The notes beneath the pieces are model-generated. The model was not told where the DNA came from. It searched no databases and saw only the letters and a list, made by a program, of their open reading frames with translations. From the NCBI GenBank assembly GCA_021737275.1, contig JAIPEE010000017.1:1-64000 (forward strand): 64,000 nt of DNA. The letters run 5' to 3'. This stretch comes from Desulfobacterales bacterium. Its GTDB lineage: Bacteria > Desulfobacterota > Desulfobacteria > Desulfobacterales > JAIPEE01. The translations under genes and the position numbers were made by a program. Shown here piece after piece: positions 12,382 to 39,140 of this stretch (its first letter is position 1; each line of letters begins with the position of its first letter).

Positions 12382-14448
12382 ATGATTGAAAAGGTAAAAA
12401 AATCAAGAAACATTGCGCTTGTTGCTCACAGTGGAGCCGGCAAAACATCTCTGGCTGAAAATATATTGTTTAAAGCCGGTGTAACGACTCGCCTGGGTAA
12501 GGTTGAAGAAGGCAACACTGCGATGGATTTTGAGCCTGAAGAGCTGAAACGGCAATCCAGTATCAGTAGTAGTTTTCACAAACTGGACTGGAAGAAGCAT
12601 CATATTACCCTGATTGATACCCCTGGTGATCAGAATTTCTTTTCTGATACAAAATCATGTATGCAGGCCGGGGATTCTGCTGTGGTAATGATTGATGGTG
12701 TGGACGGTGTTAAAGTCCAGACCGAACTTGCCTGGAAGTATGCAGAAGATTTCAATATGCCCTGCATCATCTTCATTAACAAATTAGATCGGGAACGGGC
12801 TGATTTTATGCGCACATTTAATGATGCACATGAAATTTTTGATCCCAAGCCGATTATGATTCAGCTTCCGATCGGTTCAGAAAATAATTTTAAAGGTGTT
12901 GTTGATCTGGTAGCAATGAAAGCGGTTACTTATGACGCCGGCAAGGCCACAGTTGGCGATATCCCTTCGGATATGATGGATGAAGCAGAAAGCCGGAGAG
13001 AGGCGATGATTGAAAATATTGCCGAAGCTGATGATGCACTTATTGAGAAATATCTTGAAGGTGAAACGCTTACCGATGATGAGATTAAAGCTGCTTTAAA
13101 AAAGGGAACAATGGAAAGAATATTTGCACCCGTTCTTTGTGGTTCTGTTTTAAATGATATTGGAACGGACCTTCTCCTGGATTGCGTTGTCAGCTGCCTG
13201 CCCTCTCCTGCCGAACGCAGTGCATGGAAGTGTGTTGATGCTGTTTCCGGTGATGAGATCGAATGTGAGCCGGATCCGGAGGCACCATTTGCAGCATTTG
13301 TTTTTAAAACTGTTGCAGACCCGTATGCAGGCCAGCTTTCTATCTTCCGTATTGTTTCAGGTAAACTGGGAAGCGACGGCACATTTTATAATGTAAATAA
13401 AGAAACGAAAGAAAGATTTAACCAGATTCTTGGAATTGCCGGAAAGGAACAGAAACAGATATCTGAAGCCGGCCCCGGATCAATAGTTGCTGTAGCAAAA
13501 CTGAAGGATACCAAAACAGGTGATACCCTGTGTGATGATAGCAGAAAGATTAAAATCGCCTGTACCGAGCCAATGCCGACATTGATATCTTTTGCAATTC
13601 AGGCAAAAAATCAAGGTGACGAAGATAAAATATTTTCATCGCTGTCAAAACTGATTGAAGAAGATCAGGCTTTAAAGCTTGACCGTAATGCTGAAACAAA
13701 AGAGATTCTTCTTTTAGGGCGTGGACAAGTCCATATAGAAGCAACGGTTGAAAAACTTAAAAGAAAATTCAATGTGGATGTTCTTCTGAACACACCTAAA
13801 GTGCCTTATCGGGAAACCATTAAAAAGAAAGTCCGCGTTCAGGGTAAACATAAGAAACAGTCCGGTGGGCATGGGCAGTTCGGTGACTGCTGGATTAAAA
13901 TGGAACCGATGCCAAGAGGTGGCGGATTTGAATTTGTTGACGCGATTGTCGGTGGTTCCATTCCTAAAACCTATATACCTGCAGTTGAAAAAGGTATTGT
14001 GGAAGCTGCCGTAAAGGGCGTGCTTGCCGGCTTTCCGACAGTAGATTTCAGGGTTATACTTGATGACGGCTCTTTCCATGCGGTTGACTCATCAGAAATG
14101 GCCTTCAAGATTGCCGGTTCACTGGCATTCAAAAAAGCAATTGAAGAGGCAAAACCGGTTCTACTTGAACCTATAATGAAAGTAGCTGTAACTGTTCCGG
14201 ATGATTTTATGGGCGATATTATGGGTGACCTTAACAGTCGTCGCGGCCGTGTTCTGGGTATGGACAGTGAGGGTAAAAATCAGGTGGTTAATGCCAATGT
14301 GCCGCTTTCAGAGTTTTTGACATATGCACCGGATCTTACTTCAATGACGGGTGGACGCGGTATTTTTACAATGGAATTTTCCCATTATGATGAGGTCCCT
14401 GCACAAATATCACAAAAGCTTGTAGAAGAACTCAATAAAGAAAAGTAA
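12382..14448 (+). CDS. Elongation factor G-like protein (EF-G II subfamily)
   Basis: Translational GTPase of 688 residues with five EF-G domains but a divergent G domain. The P-loop is AHSGAGKT (15-22), DTPGD stands in place of DTPGH, and NKLD is intact. The G2/switch I segment, normally RGITI, reads QSSIS within ELKRQSSIS. Domain IV retains KKQSGGHGQFGD and domain V ends with YDEVPAQI. These traits match the EF-G II/EF-G-2 group (for example Thermus EF-G-2), whose role is unclear, rather than the main translocase. RBS GAGAGGAG lies eight or nine bases before ATG 12382. It is a single-gene unit ended by a strong terminator. A second, mitochondrial-type EF-G is at 37059. Confidence 0.88.
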   Translation: MIEKVKKSRNIALVAHSGAGKTSLAENILFKAGVTTRLGKVEEGNTAMDFEPEELKRQSSISSSFHKLDWKKHHITLIDTPGDQNFFSDTKSCMQAGDSAVVMIDGVDGVKVQTELAWKYAEDFNMPCIIFINKLDRERADFMRTFNDAHEIFDPKPIMIQLPIGSENNFKGVVDLVAMKAVTYDAGKATVGDIPSDMMDEAESRREAMIENIAEADDALIEKYLEGETLTDDEIKAALKKGTMERIFAPVLCGSVLNDIGTDLLLDCVVSCLPSPAERSAWKCVDAVSGDEIECEPDPEAPFAAFVFKTVADPYAGQLSIFRIVSGKLGSDGTFYNVNKETKERFNQILGIAGKEQKQISEAGPGSIVAVAKLKDTKTGDTLCDDSRKIKIACTEPMPTLISFAIQAKNQGDEDKIFSSLSKLIEEDQALKLDRNAETKEILLLGRGQVHIEATVEKLKRKFNVDVLLNTPKVPYRETIKKKVRVQGKHKKQSGGHGQFGDCWIKMEPMPRGGGFEFVDAIVGGSIPKTYIPAVEKGIVEAAVKGVLAGFPTVDFRVILDDGSFHAVDSSEMAFKIAGSLAFKKAIEEAKPVLLEPIMKVAVTVPDDFMGDIMGDLNSRRGRVLGMDSEGKNQVVNANVPLSEFLTYAPDLTSMTGGRGIFTMEFSHYDEVPAQISQKLVEELNKEK

Positions 14449-15121: not shown

Positions 15122-15550
15122 TTGCATTCAAAAATTCTTGTATTTCATTTTCCGATAACAAAATCACAAACACCGCTGGTTTGCATGCTGGCTAAAGATT
15201 TTGACCTTACTTTTAATATATTGAACGCTACCATACTTCCCCGCAAGGAAGGCGTTATGGTCCTTGAGTTGTCCGGATCAAGAAAAAACTTCAATGAAGG
15301 TGTTCAGTTTTTAAAAGATCATGGCGTAATTGTTCAGAATGCCTCACAGGAAGTTAAGCGTATAAGAAAGAAATGCACTCACTGTGGCGCTTGTACTGCC
15401 GTCTGCCCTACCGGCGCATTGGCGGTTGAACGACCTGAGATGAGAGTTGTTTTTGATCAGCAAAAATGCAGTGTCTGTAAACTTTGTATTCCCACTTGTC
15501 CAACCAGGGCAATGGAAGTTCGATTGTTAAGCGATGAAATTCTTGAATGA
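15122..15550 (+). CDS. NIL domain plus 2x[4Fe-4S] ferredoxin protein
   Basis: A 142-residue protein with an N-terminal NIL domain (1-75; ligand-binding ACT-like fold also found at the C-terminus of MetN) and a bacterial-type ferredoxin. The two clusters are ligated by C85, C88, C91, C95 and C116, C119, C122, C126 (CTHCGACTAVCP and CSVCKLCIPTCP). The start is TTG 15122, set by GGAGGT five bases upstream. The stop overlaps the mnmA start (ATGA), so the two are coupled. In methanogens a NIL-ferredoxin takes part in sulfide incorporation into homocysteine. A sulfur or electron supply role for the adjacent tRNA thiolase is my inference. Confidence 0.88.
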   Translation: MHSKILVFHFPITKSQTPLVCMLAKDFDLTFNILNATILPRKEGVMVLELSGSRKNFNEGVQFLKDHGVIVQNASQEVKRIRKKCTHCGACTAVCPTGALAVERPEMRVVFDQQKCSVCKLCIPTCPTRAMEVRLLSDEILE

Positions 15551-16608
15551 AGCATAAAGTTGCCATTGCGTTAAGTGGCGGGGTTGATTCTCTTGTCGCT
15601 GCACATATTCTGAAATCAAAGGGATATGAAGTTTTTGGAGTTCATTTTTTAACAGGATACACTCCCTACCCTAATCTCTCTTTAAACAATCGTTATACAG
15701 ATCAGCTCATATCATACCTGAAATCATCTCTTGGAATCGAGGTATATGTCTATGATTACAGAAAAGAGTTTCAGAAACAGGTAATTGATTACTTTGTTGA
15801 TACGTATCAGGCCGGCAAAACACCCAATCCGTGTATTCAATGTAATGCGACAATAAAATTTGGCATTATGATGGATAAAGCCATGCAACTTGATTCAGAT
15901 CATCTTGCGACAGGCCACTATGCAAATATAAATAAGGATAAATCAGGTACTTGCCATTTATTAAAAGGTTTTGATTTAGGAAAAGATCAGTCGTACTTTT
16001 TAAGTCGTTTATCTCAGAGGCAGCTCTCTTATGCCCTCTTTCCACTTTCAGGTTATACAAAAGATCAAACGAGACAATATGCCGAAAAAAAAGGGTTAAC
16101 CCCTTTTACTAAAGCTGAAAGTCAGGACATCTGTTTTATCCCGAGCAATAATTATTCAGCCTTTTTGGAAAAACAGAAAGGTTTTGATATTACGGGCGGC
16201 CCCATTAAAGATACTGATGGAAATATTATTGGCCGGCATACCGGCTTATACCATTACACAATTGGCCAGAGGCGTGGTATTAATTGCCCGGCTCCGGAAG
16301 CATATTATGTTGTTAAGCTTGATGTGGAGAGAAACTGTCTTGTTGTCGGCTTTAAAGATGCACTTTTAAAACAAACATGCCTGGTAAAAAATATTAACTG
16401 GATACATACTATTCCTGAAAAACCCGTTAAACTTCATATCCGGATCAGATATCATCACACGGAAGTGCCCTCAACAGTTATTCCTGTTGATAATCAGACC
16501 GCCAGGATAGAATTTGAAACACCCCAATCTGCGGTAACACCGGGTCAGGGTGCAGTCTTTTATAAAGGTGATGAAATTCTTGGCGGTGGCTGGATCGATT
16601 TTGAGTAA
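15547..16608 (+). CDS. mnmA: tRNA 2-thiouridine(34) synthase MnmA, NPCxxC variant
   Basis: ATP-dependent tRNA-uridine thiolase acting on U34 of Lys, Glu and Gln tRNAs. The PP-loop SGGVDS is at 10-15, the first Cys region is NPCIQCN (94-100) and the second is SQDICFIP (192-199). TGHYA, DQSYFL and the C-terminal YTIGQRRGI beta-barrel are typical. At 353 residues it is near family length. In E. coli MnmA the position of C96 is Asp99; here C96, C99 and C196 form a three-Cys set that could ligate a [4Fe-4S] cluster. The gene is coupled to a NIL-ferredoxin and followed by another tRNA modification enzyme, mtaB. Confidence 0.9.
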   Translation: MKHKVAIALSGGVDSLVAAHILKSKGYEVFGVHFLTGYTPYPNLSLNNRYTDQLISYLKSSLGIEVYVYDYRKEFQKQVIDYFVDTYQAGKTPNPCIQCNATIKFGIMMDKAMQLDSDHLATGHYANINKDKSGTCHLLKGFDLGKDQSYFLSRLSQRQLSYALFPLSGYTKDQTRQYAEKKGLTPFTKAESQDICFIPSNNYSAFLEKQKGFDITGGPIKDTDGNIIGRHTGLYHYTIGQRRGINCPAPEAYYVVKLDVERNCLVVGFKDALLKQTCLVKNINWIHTIPEKPVKLHIRIRYHHTEVPSTVIPVDNQTARIEFETPQSAVTPGQGAVFYKGDEILGGGWIDFE

Positions 16609-16617
16609 ACTATAGAT

Positions 16618-17955
16618 ATGGCAACGTATAAAATTACAACTTTTGGCTGTAAGGTCAATCAGTGTGAGTCTGATTCAATCTGTTCCTGTATGAACTTACC
16701 GGGATGGTCATCGGCAGATAAAAATGAAACGGCGGATATCTTTATTATTAATACATGTACGGTTACACAGAAAGCTTCAATGCAGTCCCGGCAGGCTATC
16801 AGGCAGGCTATTCGTGAAAATCCGGATGCAAAAGTAATTGTTACCGGTTGCTACGCTCAGGTAAATCCTGAAGAAATTGAAGCTATTAAGGGTGTGGATG
16901 TTGTAATTGGCCAGTCTGATAAACATACAATTCCGGAAATACTTGCTGCTTTGGAAGAATCAGGTTCTGAAATTAAAAAACACAATATTACATCAATTGA
17001 AAACGAAACGGCATTCAGCCCGCTAACCATAAGCCGAACAGGAAACCGGACACGGTTTTTTCTTAAAGTTCAGGACGGCTGTAACTCTTTTTGTACTTAC
17101 TGTATTGTTCCCTATGCACGAGGCAGAGTCCGTAGCATGATGCCTGAAGAAGTAATGCGTAACCTGGAGATACTTGATAGTGAAGGTTTTAACGAAGTTG
17201 TTTTAACGGGTGTTCATCTTGGGCGTTATGGATCGGACCTGGAACCCCAAAAGAGCTTATTAGACCTCTTAAAAGAAATTGATGCGCTGTCAGGTATACA
17301 CCGATTCAGGCTGAGCTCAATAGAGCCAAAGGAACTTAGCGAAGAAATTATTGAACTGGTAAGCCTTTCAAACAAGTTTTGCCGCCATTTTCATATTCCC
17401 CTGCAAAGTGGTGATAACCATATTCTCAAACAGATGAAGCGGCCATATTCAAGAGATTATTTTAAAAAACTTGTCCTCAATATTGATAAAAAAATACCTG
17501 ACATAGCAATAGGTGCGGATGTTCTTGTCGGTTTTCCCGGTGAAACGGATACCGAATTTAACAACACATATGCGCTGATTGAATCACTTCCCGTTTCCTA
17601 CCTCCATGTTTTCCCCTTTTCCCCAAGGAAAGGAACGCCCGCCGCGAGCTTCCCGGGCCAGGTTCATTCAAAAACAATTAAGGAAAGATGCCGACTGATA
17701 CGCAGGCTTGGTTTGAAAAAGAAAGAACGGTTTTACAGCCGCTTCATTGGTAAAACCCTGAATGTTTTGGTTGAGGGAGCTGTAAAATCCTCTCCGGGCA
17801 TGATGAAGGGTTTGACTTCAAACTATCTCACTGTTTATATTGAAACAAATAAGTTTATTAAAAACACTGTTGTCCCTGTAAAAATAACACAAAAACTGAA
17901 TCCGCACACATTATTGGGAGAACTCCCTGCTAATGGAAAAGGAACAAATTTATAA
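16618..17955 (+). CDS. mtaB: tRNA t6A37 methylthiotransferase (MtaB family radical SAM enzyme)
   Basis: Adds a methylthio group to N6-threonylcarbamoyladenosine 37. The N-terminal UPF0004 domain holds the auxiliary cluster Cys C11, C47 and C78 (TFGCKVNQCE, NTCTVT, TGCYAQ); FGCKVNQ distinguishes MtaB from MiaB. The radical SAM motif is CNSFCTYC with C155, C159 and C162. The TIM barrel contains LTGVHLGRYG, HFHIPLQSGD and DVLVGFPGETD, and a short TRAM-like domain ends the 445 residues. It follows mnmA by nine bases, giving a tRNA sulfur-modification unit. Its end overlaps the HAD gene by 23 bases. Confidence 0.93.
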   Translation: MATYKITTFGCKVNQCESDSICSCMNLPGWSSADKNETADIFIINTCTVTQKASMQSRQAIRQAIRENPDAKVIVTGCYAQVNPEEIEAIKGVDVVIGQSDKHTIPEILAALEESGSEIKKHNITSIENETAFSPLTISRTGNRTRFFLKVQDGCNSFCTYCIVPYARGRVRSMMPEEVMRNLEILDSEGFNEVVLTGVHLGRYGSDLEPQKSLLDLLKEIDALSGIHRFRLSSIEPKELSEEIIELVSLSNKFCRHFHIPLQSGDNHILKQMKRPYSRDYFKKLVLNIDKKIPDIAIGADVLVGFPGETDTEFNNTYALIESLPVSYLHVFPFSPRKGTPAASFPGQVHSKTIKERCRLIRRLGLKKKERFYSRFIGKTLNVLVEGAVKSSPGMMKGLTSNYLTVYIETNKFIKNTVVPVKITQKLNPHTLLGELPANGKGTNL

Positions 17956-18808: not shown

Positions 18809-20635
18809 ATGAGTGATCAGAACAGTACATCAGAAGAAAAAGTAAATCCCGGAAAGAAAAAACTGGCTATGGCAGCAAAAAACCCGGAAATGCATGCCTG
18901 GCTTACAGCATTTTATATTGAAAATCATCTTGATTACTACACCTACCCTTCACAGGTGGCGACACCCGAGCAGGTCAGATTTATGGTAAGCCTTGGTGAA
19001 TACGAGCGTTATTATCCCTGTTCAGACCTTATGTTTGACGAGATTATGAAAAAAGGGGGGTCAGAATATCTTAAGAAACAATACAAAGTGGTTCTTGATA
19101 AAATTTTAGCACTTATCGAAAAAAAGATCGAAAAATTCGATGAAAAAAAATATCTTTCAGAACTTATCAGAATAAAACACAAACATGAAACCCGGGACGG
19201 GCTTATGATACCTTCCCGGCTTGAAAAGCGCCTGTTAAAAATATTCATAAACCGGACACAAATAGAAGACCCTCATCTTTATGAAAAAGCAACCCGTAAT
19301 TGGCGAGCGAGCCAGGCGCTGAATTCTCAAGCATTCAGAGATGCATTTAACCATCTCGAACCTTCCGATTTTTTAAATGCATCTGCAAATATCAGCGGTA
19401 TCCGCAAACTGGTAGGCGTGCTAGAACTGAAAAGACTTTTTTCGCTTTGCCATGAAAGATCTTTATGGGAAACCGATGTTGCGGAAACATTTACAAAAGC
19501 AAATTATTATACCCTCTTTGAAAGAGATATAACAGGAAATGGTCTTGAGCCCCTTCTGGAAACGTTTGGTATTGTTGAAAGCAATAATTCAATAAAAAAT
19601 GGAAACAAAAAAAAGATTTTATGGTTAGCCAATGAAGCCGGAGAGATTATGGTTGATTTCATGATAATCCGTTACCTGGCAAACCTTGGACACAAGATTA
19701 TTATCGCATTCAAAGATGGTCCCTTTTATACAAAAGTTGATTTTTATGATGCTCAGACTGATGACGCCTTAACTGAAGCATTGGAAGATGCATTAATTAT
19801 CAAAGAAAATAATTTAAGCAAAAATGACCTTATTAAAATGCTGAGACATTATAACAGTACGATTGCCATAAATGACGGGACGCGTGAAACAATCAATTTG
19901 CTCCTCGCAACTAAAACATTTTCAAGGGTCTTCAAAGAGGTGGACTGTGTGATTTCACGAGGTGTGGAACAAAAACATCGCTTTTTTGATACTCATTTTC
20001 AGTTTACACAAGATATTTATAATATCTCTGAAGGAGAAAATAATACTGTTGAAATAGCCTATAAGCCGAAAGATCCGAAAGTTATAAAATTTTCTCATAA
20101 GAACCTTGAAGATAAAGCAAATCTGATTATAAAAGAGATGAAAGATGCCCGCAATAATGGTATGTCCGTTACTTTCTACAGCGGTATTATTGGCTCCATA
20201 CCCGGAAAAATAAAGATAGCCAAAAAAATTATGTCCGTATTTATTCAGCATTTAAAGAAACAGTTTGATGAGGCCTATATTATTAACCCCTCCGAGTATT
20301 ATGAGCCTGGTATGGATGCAGATGACCTTATGTACATGTGGGAAATTGTACAGAGAAGTGGATATATCGATATATGGCGCTTTCAAAGCTATGAGGACAT
20401 TGTTGAATCATTTCAGTTGATGGGTGAAAAGGTGCCGCCTGAATGGGTTGGCAAAGATGCTACATTCAGTACCGGTTGCACAAAGGAAATCAAAATTGCG
20501 GTAGAAGTACAGGAATTACATCCTGAGATGCAAATTAGCGGGCCATCTGTTGAAAAGTTTATGCGGCGAAATGAATACGGCATCGGAAAAATGTTTGATA
20601 AAAAACTTATCCAGATACACTCTCAAATCAAGTAA
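18809..20635 (+). CDS. Large protein with a DUF89/ARMT1-like C-terminal region
   Basis: A 608-residue soluble protein. The first 250 residues are helical and unfamiliar. From about 265 the pattern resembles DUF89 metal-dependent phosphatases: WLANEAGEIMVDFMIIRYLA (272-291) parallels the DNAGE motif, FKDGPFYTKVDFYDA (301-315) the second motif, and CVISRGVEQ (about 385) the third. The usual metal-binding Asp-Asn of DNAGE is Asn-Glu here, so metal binding may be altered or lost. Shine-Dalgarno GGAG lies ahead of ATG 18809, 27 bases after the HAD gene. I am moderately sure of the fold and not of any activity. Confidence 0.5.
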   Translation: MSDQNSTSEEKVNPGKKKLAMAAKNPEMHAWLTAFYIENHLDYYTYPSQVATPEQVRFMVSLGEYERYYPCSDLMFDEIMKKGGSEYLKKQYKVVLDKILALIEKKIEKFDEKKYLSELIRIKHKHETRDGLMIPSRLEKRLLKIFINRTQIEDPHLYEKATRNWRASQALNSQAFRDAFNHLEPSDFLNASANISGIRKLVGVLELKRLFSLCHERSLWETDVAETFTKANYYTLFERDITGNGLEPLLETFGIVESNNSIKNGNKKKILWLANEAGEIMVDFMIIRYLANLGHKIIIAFKDGPFYTKVDFYDAQTDDALTEALEDALIIKENNLSKNDLIKMLRHYNSTIAINDGTRETINLLLATKTFSRVFKEVDCVISRGVEQKHRFFDTHFQFTQDIYNISEGENNTVEIAYKPKDPKVIKFSHKNLEDKANLIIKEMKDARNNGMSVTFYSGIIGSIPGKIKIAKKIMSVFIQHLKKQFDEAYIINPSEYYEPGMDADDLMYMWEIVQRSGYIDIWRFQSYEDIVESFQLMGEKVPPEWVGKDATFSTGCTKEIKIAVEVQELHPEMQISGPSVEKFMRRNEYGIGKMFDKKLIQIHSQIK

Positions 20636-37058: not shown

Positions 37059-39140
37059 ATGAAGACTGACATTAATAAAGTTAGAAATATCGGTATCAGC
37101 GCACACATTGACTCCGGCAAGACCACGCTTACAGAGCGGATTCTTTTTTATACACAGAGAATTCATGCTATCCATGATGTAAAAGGGAAAGACGGTGTCG
37201 GTGCAACGATGGATTCCATGGAATTGGAAAAAGAGCGAGGCATTACAATCGCTTCCGCAGCAACATTCTGTGAGTGGAAAAAACATGAAATCAACATTAT
37301 TGATACCCCCGGCCATGTAGATTTTACAATTGAAGTTGAACGATCGTTAAGGGTTCTGGACGGTGCCATTCTTGTCCTTTGTTCTGTGGGCGGCGTTCAG
37401 TCCCAGTCAATCACCGTTGATCAGCAAATGAAGCGATATAAGGTACCGTGTGTTGCATTTATCAATAAATGCGACAGGAGCGGCGCTAACCCGTTTAAAG
37501 TTATTAATCAACTCAGAGATAAACTTGGACATAATGCAGTTGCCATGCAGATTCCGATTGGTCTTGAAGAAAAACTTGAAGGTGTTGTGGATCTTATTGA
37601 GATGAAAGCGATCTATTTCGATGGCGATAATGGTGAAATTCTCAGAAAAGAAGATATTCCTGAAAATCTTGCAGCAGAAGCTGCTGAAAAAAGGGAAGCA
37701 CTTCTTGAATCCGCATCTATGTTTTCTGATGAACTGATGGAAGCCATTCTTGAAGAAGGTGAGATATCCGCTGATTTAATAATTGATGCTGTCCGTAAAG
37801 GTACCCTTTTACGGGAGATCACGCCTGTCTATATGGGATCTGCTTATAAAAATAAAGGTGTGCAGCCCTTGCTTGATGCGGTTAACAACATTCTCCCCTG
37901 CCCTTCGGAAATTGAAAATCAGGCACTTGATCTTGATAATGAGGAAGAGCCCGTTGTGCTTTCAAGCAGCATTGATGATCCGATTGTAGCGTTGGCATTT
38001 AAACTTGAGGAAGGTCAATACGGCCAGCTTACTTATATTCGGGTTTATCAGGGTGCATTAAAAAAAGGCGATACGGTTGTAAATGTCAGAACAGGAAGAA
38101 AAATAAAAATCGGACGTCTGGCGCGTATGCACGCAGCCCAGATGGAAGATATTGAAATGGTACCGGCCGGGTATATCGGTGCACTTTTTGGAGTAGACTG
38201 CGCCTCAGGAGATACATTTGTTCATCCTGATATAAACCTGACCATGACCTCCATGTTTGTTCCCGAACCGGTAATTTCTCTGGCAATTGTTCCTGTAGAC
38301 AAAAAATCGGAAGTAAATATTTCCAAGGCCCTGTCAAGGTTTACTAAAGAAGATCCGACATTCACAACATATGTCAGTGATGAGACCGGTGATACGATCA
38401 TCTCTGGAATGGGCGAACTTCACCTTGAGGTTTATGTTGAGCGTATGCGCCGGGAATACAAAGCTGAAGTCGAGACAGGTAAACCTCGTGTCGCATACAG
38501 AGAAACCATCACACAGCGGGCCGAATTTAATTATACTCATAAAAAACAGACCGGTGGATCCGGTCAGTATGGTCGTATTGCGGGTTTTATTGAGCCTTTT
38601 TCAGAGGGTGATTTCGAATTTGAAAACAAGATAACCGGTGGCTCTATTCCGACGCAGTATATTTCATCATGTGAAAAGGGCTTTCAAAGCTGTCTTAAAA
38701 AAGGTCCCAAGATGGAGTTTCCGGTAACCGGTGTTAAAATTCAGATTAATGATGGTGCATCGCATTCAGTTGATTCATCTGAAATGGCATTTCAGGCGGC
38801 TGCAAGGGGTGCCTTTATGGAAGGTTACCTTAAAGCAAAGCCGGTCATTCATGAACCGATAATGAAAGTGGTGGTTGAAACCCCTACAGAGTTTCAGGGC
38901 GGCGTTATGGGTTCCCTTAATCAGCGCAGAGGTATTATCGTAGGTACACAGGATGAAGGTGCCATATGCGTTGTTGAAGCCCAGGTACCCCTTTCTGAAA
39001 TGTTTGGCTATTCTACCAATTTAAGATCCTTGACCCAGGGAAAAGCTCAGTTTACAATGGAGTTTCTGACATACCGACAGGTACCCCAAAGTATAGCTGA
39101 AGAAATTGTGAAAGCTGCAGCTGAAGAAAAAAAGAAATAA
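37059..39140 (+). CDS. fusA: Elongation factor G, spd/mitochondrial-type (spdEFG1)
   Basis: Translocation GTPase of 693 residues with intact motifs: AHIDSGKTT in the P-loop, [10 protein letters not shown] (G2), DTPGHVDF (G3), NKCD (G4). Long stretches such as [19 protein letters not shown] and [20 protein letters not shown], plus IYFDGDNG, closely resemble human mitochondrial EF-G1. This marks the spdEFG1 group found in spirochaetes, planctomycetes and deltaproteobacteria. It is not in a str operon (no rpsL, rpsG or tuf nearby). With EF-G II at 12382 it gives two EF-Gs in this window. GCAGAAGGA lies upstream of the ATG. Confidence 0.92.

Follow-up and report, generated by a model that had tools for sequence, protein, structure and literature searches.

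A NIL-ferredoxin gene overlapping mnmA in a Desulfobacterales genome: a possible shared sulfide supply for homocysteine synthesis and tRNA thiolation

A gene for a NIL-domain ferredoxin (NIL-Fd) overlaps mnmA, with mtaB close behind, in the 64,000-nucleotide stretch of a Desulfobacterales genome analysed here (the window). We suggest, at a probability of about one half, that NIL-Fd serves the homocysteine synthase HcyS (DUF39), that its operon with mnmA and mtaB reflects a shared sulfide supply, and that MnmA is fed with sulfide in a reaction free of redox chemistry. The pairing of NIL-Fd with mnmA is real, wide and far beyond chance, and the informative markers are the loss of an N-terminal CC motif from MnmA and the sulfide-assimilation neighbours of its gene, not the cysteine at the position of E. 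coli Asp99 or an electron feed from the ferredoxin. No description of a NIL-Fd/mnmA operon was found in the open-access literature that we searched.

Results

Organization of the locus

The three genes and the elements discussed below are as follows:

15122..15550, + strand: NIL-Fd gene, TTG start, 142 aa
15134..15337, + strand: NIL domain of NIL-Fd (Pfam PF09383, 53.5 bits)
15374..15406, + strand: first 4Fe-4S motif of NIL-Fd, C85-x2-C88-x2-C91-x3-C95 (from the sequence)
15467..15499, + strand: second 4Fe-4S motif of NIL-Fd, C116-x2-C119-x2-C122-x3-C126 (from the sequence)
15547..15550, + strand: ATGA overlap of the NIL-Fd stop and the mnmA start, 4 bases
15547..16608, + strand: mnmA, tRNA U34 2-thiouridylase, C-type (NPCxxCN) without the N-terminal CC, ATG start
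15574..15591, + strand: PP-loop SGGVDS of MnmA (from the sequence)
15652..15738, + strand: MnmA segment in place of the CC region of other C-type MnmAs, residues about 36-64, 0 Cys
15832..15834, + strand: MnmA C96, E. coli Asp99 position (alignment)
15841..15843, + strand: MnmA C99, E. coli Cys102 position (alignment)
16132..16134, + strand: MnmA C196, E. coli Cys199 position (alignment)
16618..17955, + strand: mtaB, t6A37 methylthiotransferase, radical SAM (NCBIfam TIGR01579, 460.8 bits, cut-off 357)

A first-pass annotation of the window had described a NIL plus 2x[4Fe-4S] ferredoxin overlapping mnmA by ATGA and C96, C99 and C196 in MnmA, and the open reading frames, their starts, Pfam and the alignment bear this description out. 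Both 4Fe-4S motifs are without variation across 10 aligned NIL-ferredoxins, and the closest NIL-ferredoxins in named records come from Desulfobacterales/Desulfobacteraceae. Only 9 bp separate mnmA and mtaB, a spacing by which the two are predicted to form one transcription unit. Searches of the window gave no riboswitch or other known RNA ahead of the operon at the gathering threshold, and a promoter scan of the window gave a site count no higher than in shuffles. Elsewhere, the window encodes a 608-aa protein without any Pfam match (18809-20635, +) and two elongation-factor-G-like proteins, one of them confirmed by Pfam (37059-39140, +) and the other judged from its sequence alone (12382-14448, +).

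MnmA is a CC-less member of the C-type class

The window MnmA contains all three MnmA domains of Pfam and reaches 390 bits against the NCBIfam MnmA equivalog (cut-off 284). Its AlphaFold model has a pLDDT of 90.9, with the loop carrying C196 as the least certain part, and its best fold matches are MnmA structures throughout (TM 0.86-0.92). C96, C99 and C196 align with the three cysteines of a solved C-type MnmA (9hln); the PDB also has a variant MnmA chain with Asp at the first of these positions (9hlv).

The cysteine at the Asp99 position had been taken for a special feature of the pair, and this proved mistaken. Among 118 evenly sampled genomes of the phylum, MnmA was found in 112 and its motif region was readable in 111, all of which have this cysteine (NPCxxCN or close Cys-first variants); the all-Cys site is ordinary for the phylum. 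The assignment to a class with a demonstrated [4Fe-4S] cluster stands: such a cluster has been demonstrated on the C-type MnmA of T. thermophilus (Shigi 2020, as reported in PMC8584467 and PMC11784392), with which the window protein shares the CxxC and third active-site cysteines, the PP-loop and the three domains, and to judge from these residues the window MnmA probably carries a cluster as well. For E. coli MnmA, the cluster requirement is contested (PMC11784392). The window MnmA differs from the full C type (CC-CxxC-C) in having 0 Cys from the PP-loop to NPCIQC, that is, the N-terminal CC is absent. CC-less variants of C-type MnmA were noted earlier in Campylobacter and Helicobacter (PMC11784392), and we therefore file the window protein under this variant.

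NIL-Fd tracks DUF39

The NIL/ferredoxin protein works with DUF39 (HcyS) to make homocysteine, and in D. vulgaris homocysteine synthesis requires each of NIL/ferredoxin, DUF39 and COG2122 (PMC5764234). The window NIL-Fd has the same domains as the NIL/ferredoxins of this pathway (MA1822 and DvMF_0262; NIL plus two 4Fe-4S, about 140 aa), and DUF39 is encoded in its genome on another contig (G000:C65, 530.6 bits); it differs from them in overlapping mnmA instead of adjoining DUF39. It is the sole NIL protein of the 4.26 Mb genome, in which no second full-length MnmA was found either; a further copy of one or the other that would free the window pair from household duty was considered and discarded.

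DUF39 is present in 84 of the 118 phylum genomes, 83 of which have a NIL match; in the one that does not (G046), a NIL-Fd missed by the domain search adjoins mnmA. NIL lies beside mnmA in 44 of the 84 genomes with DUF39 versus a single one of the 34 genomes lacking it, and this single genome is a draft; a sister genome from the same family, G056, carries pieces of DUF39 at contig ends. NIL and DUF39 are neighbours in 34 genomes, and in 11 of these NIL also adjoins mnmA; many NIL-Fd genes lie next to DUF39 at a distance from mnmA. Because NIL tracks DUF39 and not mnmA, it appears to be retained for homocysteine, which is the best-supported role of the window NIL-Fd. An O-acetylhomoserine sulfhydrylase-type gene was also found in the window's genome, and homocysteine may thus have a second source besides the DUF39 route.

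NIL-Fd and mnmA are paired in many families

Co-occurrence of NIL-Fd and mnmA, which the first-pass annotation had anticipated, is strong. In 45 of the 118 genomes, and in 22 of the 49 families that have both, NIL and mnmA are no more than 4 kb apart, and NIL-Fd and mnmA are in direct contact in 15 families. In the genome_contigs set of named genomes, NIL-Fd lies directly 5' of mnmA at 61 of 80 NIL-Fd loci, which come mostly from one order and hence do not amount to 61 independent cases; the exact 4-base overlap recurs in 21 of these 61 pairs.

The order of genes varies between families: DUF39-COG2122-NILFd-mnmA(-mtaB) in f13, CysK-DUF39-NILFd-mnmA in f8, mnmA-(Rrf2)-DUF39-NILFd in f16, COG2122-NILFd-Rrf2-IscS-mnmA-mtaB in f9, NILFd-Rrf2-IscS-mnmA in f14 and NILFd-IscS-mnmA in f20 and f23, while in f29 and f45 the genes are linked in divergent orientation. 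mtaB is located 3' of mnmA in many families, with or without NIL-Fd, and no mtaB was detected where NIL-Fd lies beside mnmA in f8, f16, f29 and f37.

One locus in f9 (L147:5661-10886) joins the persulfide and sulfide sides in a single operon, with COG2122, NIL-Fd, Rrf2, a cysteine desulfurase, mnmA and mtaB one after another; one in f8 (L156:5101-10634) is a sulfur-insertion cluster of CysK, DUF39, NIL-Fd, a CC-type mnmA, a LarE-like protein and another PP-loop protein. In two loci from Desulfobacterales/Deltaproteobacteria (L227:1930-3814 and L229:2865-4593) mtaB follows NIL-Fd directly and mnmA is gone from the operon, these genomes encoding an MnmA of a third type (see below) elsewhere. NIL-Fd is also near mtaB in L239, L241 and L252.

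Loss of the CC motif coincides with a change of neighbours

The 112 MnmAs of the phylum sample comprise 68 CC-less, 37 CC-type, 6 of the third type and 1 truncated protein. iscS lies within 1 kb of mnmA for 5 of the 68 CC-less versus 21 of the 37 CC-type proteins (p = 4.7e-8; this and the other p-values of this section are from Fisher tests, which ignore kinship) or, counted by family, for 2 of 32 versus 15 of 25 (p = 1.6e-5), and the clusters of all five CC-less cases also hold NIL-Fd. DUF39 is present in the genome for 60/68 CC-less versus 17/37 CC-type MnmAs. By itself, direct contact with NIL-Fd is a weak discriminator of the two types in the evenly drawn sample (23/68 CC-less versus 6/37 CC-type, p = 0.068; by family, p = 0.037); in the genome_contigs set, all 57 typable MnmAs directly 3' of NIL-Fd are CC-less. 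Exceptions occur in both directions, with NIL-Fd directly before a CC-type mnmA in f8, f21 and f27, and with iscS beside a CC-less mnmA in f9 and f14.

On MnmA trees computed without the CC region, the CC state switches some 8 times within the phylum, and some 13 times when Omnitrophota are included. Tests on independent pairs nearly always point in the expected direction, with few differing pairs and none of the tests significant. The coincidence of CC loss with sulfide-assimilation neighbours is new and suggestive, and we treat it as a lead and not as proof.

The third MnmA type keeps NPCxxCN and has lost the Cys199 equivalent (the site reads ESQDF); where other MnmAs have CC it has one conserved cysteine in an [AGS]C[YF]G motif. 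It is encoded at L113:6986-8059, L087:6167-7249, L093, L094, L120, L143, L259, L261 and L318. Judging from these motifs, its cysteine could stand in for Cys199, either as a ligand or as the carrier of sulfur, in which case the CC region would be close to the active site.

Omnitrophota offer a parallel. Among 58 typed genomes, MnmA is CC-type in 38 and CC-less in 2 of the 40 that lack DUF39, and CC-type in 11 and CC-less in 7 of the 18 that have it. DUF39 or COG2122 lies beside mnmA for 5 of 9 CC-less versus 0 of 49 CC-type proteins (p = 2.7e-5), many of the CC-type loci having flanks of 1.5 kb only, with DUF39, where present, on another contig. The orders are CysK-DUF39-mnmA in G174 and G148 and CysK-COG2122-mnmA in G136 and G139; in G131 DUF39 lies about 3 kb from a CC-less mnmA, and two further CC-less mnmA genes adjoin CysK (G133 and G142). 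The idea that having DUF39 suffices to bring about CC loss was rejected, given the 11 Omnitrophota that combine DUF39 with a CC-type MnmA.

Sulfur supply in the window's genome

Of the parts of an E. coli-type IscS/TusABCDE relay, the window's genome has a cysteine desulfurase, NifS, which is encoded beside NifU (contig C60), and four TusA-like genes; TusB/DsrH gave no match in this genome, so the Tus relay of E. coli looks incomplete. A bypass of persulfide, as implied by the first-pass proposal of a thiolation module that sidesteps the IscS/Tus relay, is not required, given the NifS-NifU and TusA-like genes here and iscS between NIL-Fd and mnmA elsewhere.

Discussion

We propose that the thiolation of wobble uridine and the synthesis of homocysteine may share one sulfide-based sulfur supply in these sulfide-rich anaerobes. 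NIL-Fd would be the reductive partner of the HcyS encoded on contig C65, and the dependence of both pathways on the same sulfide, with their joint production, would account for its place in the mnmA-mtaB operon. In the chemistry proposed for [4Fe-4S] tRNA thiolases, three residues hold the cluster and the free iron binds hydrosulfide with no change in redox state (PMC10067955). Following this scheme, MnmA would most likely (i) adenylate U34, (ii) take up hydrosulfide on a [4Fe-4S] cluster with C96, C99 and C196 as its ligands, and (iii) hand over the hydrosulfide without redox chemistry and without electrons from NIL-Fd. The archaeal NcsA and TtuA proteins, sulfide-using [4Fe-4S] tRNA thiolases, may resemble the window MnmA in this three-Cys PP-loop chemistry; both belong to another subfamily, of which the window MnmA is not a member, and the fold match to TtuA extends over only a portion of the chain (TMq about 0.35).

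With sulfide as the donor no electrons are needed, which would leave NIL-Fd without an obvious task on MnmA, and the first-pass suggestion that NIL-Fd feeds electrons to MnmA finds no support in the non-redox chemistry. Nor is NIL-Fd tied to mnmA as a thiolation module: it tracks DUF39, and it stays with mtaB in L227 and L229, where mnmA is gone. The sulfide chemistry and the genome content together lead us to favour the co-production of two enzymes on one sulfide supply, with NIL-Fd serving HcyS. A sulfide-fed MnmA is plausible. The pairing with NIL-Fd hints at free sulfide as the source, and the loss of CC and the sulfide-assimilation genes that stand in place of iscS back this part of the first-pass proposal in its direction, but they do not prove it. 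Given the cysteine desulfurase and the O-acetylhomoserine sulfhydrylase-type gene of the same genome, the data compel neither sulfide as the donor nor a role of NIL-Fd in homocysteine synthesis.

The linkage could also be passive. An ancestral array of NIL-Fd, IscR/Rrf2, IscS, mnmA and mtaB would have lost iscS, the CC motif would have drifted away, and persulfide from NifS would still feed MnmA. The window locus resembles iscS-mnmA operons in its mnmA-mtaB unit and in the sulfur-metabolism gene directly upstream, but has NIL-Fd in the place of iscS and a CC-less MnmA. The intermediate orders with Rrf2/IscS in f9, f14, f20 and f23, the NifS and TusA-like genes, the lack of significance in the tree-controlled tests and the persistence of NIL-Fd with mtaB after the departure of mnmA all agree with such a history. 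We nevertheless consider it rather improbable, since a single deletion can hardly have given rise to linkage orders as different as those of f16, of the divergent f29 and f45 and of the CysK-DUF39-mnmA and CysK-COG2122-mnmA arrays in Omnitrophota, and since the CC state, with its numerous changes on the joint tree, tracks the neighbours nearly always in the same direction in differing pairs.

Two other explanations assign NIL-Fd a partner within the operon. It might dock on MnmA as well as on HcyS and deliver electrons or sulfur, for instance by the reduction of cluster-bound sulfane sulfur to sulfide. The stop/start overlap in 21 of the 61 pairs would agree with equal and coupled synthesis, and the pair recurs in direct contact in 15 families. 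A dedicated MnmA/NIL-Fd complex would be marked by NIL-Fd retained with mnmA where DUF39 is absent, and this was seen in 1 of 34 such genomes; together with the many NIL-Fd genes beside DUF39 and far from mnmA, the persistence of NIL-Fd where mnmA has left the operon and the non-redox description of the cluster chemistry (PMC10067955), this makes a direct partnership unlikely. That NIL-Fd is mainly the electron donor of MtaB, the radical SAM enzyme encoded two genes downstream, with mnmA as a bystander, we regard as very unlikely: it would suit the loci in which NIL-Fd directly precedes mtaB (L227, L229) or is near it (L239, L241, L252), but many genomes have mtaB after mnmA with no NIL-Fd nearby, four families have NIL-Fd beside mnmA with no mtaB detected, and the presence of NIL-Fd tracks DUF39.

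Returning to the reading that we favour, in which MnmA and HcyS draw on one sulfide supply, a shift from desulfurase persulfide to sulfide would have left its trace in the missing N-terminal CC and the missing iscS neighbour. A tentative generalization, which we think may hold but would not expect to, is that CC-less C-type MnmAs are a class of sulfide-dependent bacterial U34 thiolases that work without desulfurase persulfide, and that the CC motif is an entry point for persulfide that was lost repeatedly as mnmA joined sulfide-assimilation operons (nil-fd, hcyS, COG2122, cysK), the window locus being one such case.

Whether MnmA works by a cluster and sulfide or by persulfide is disputed, and the case has so far been argued largely on E. 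coli. MnmAs that lack both the CC motif and an iscS neighbour and are encoded among sulfide-assimilation genes form a natural set for a direct test. A sulfide-fed MnmA, if true, would connect the fidelity of translation in sulfate reducers with their supply of sulfide.
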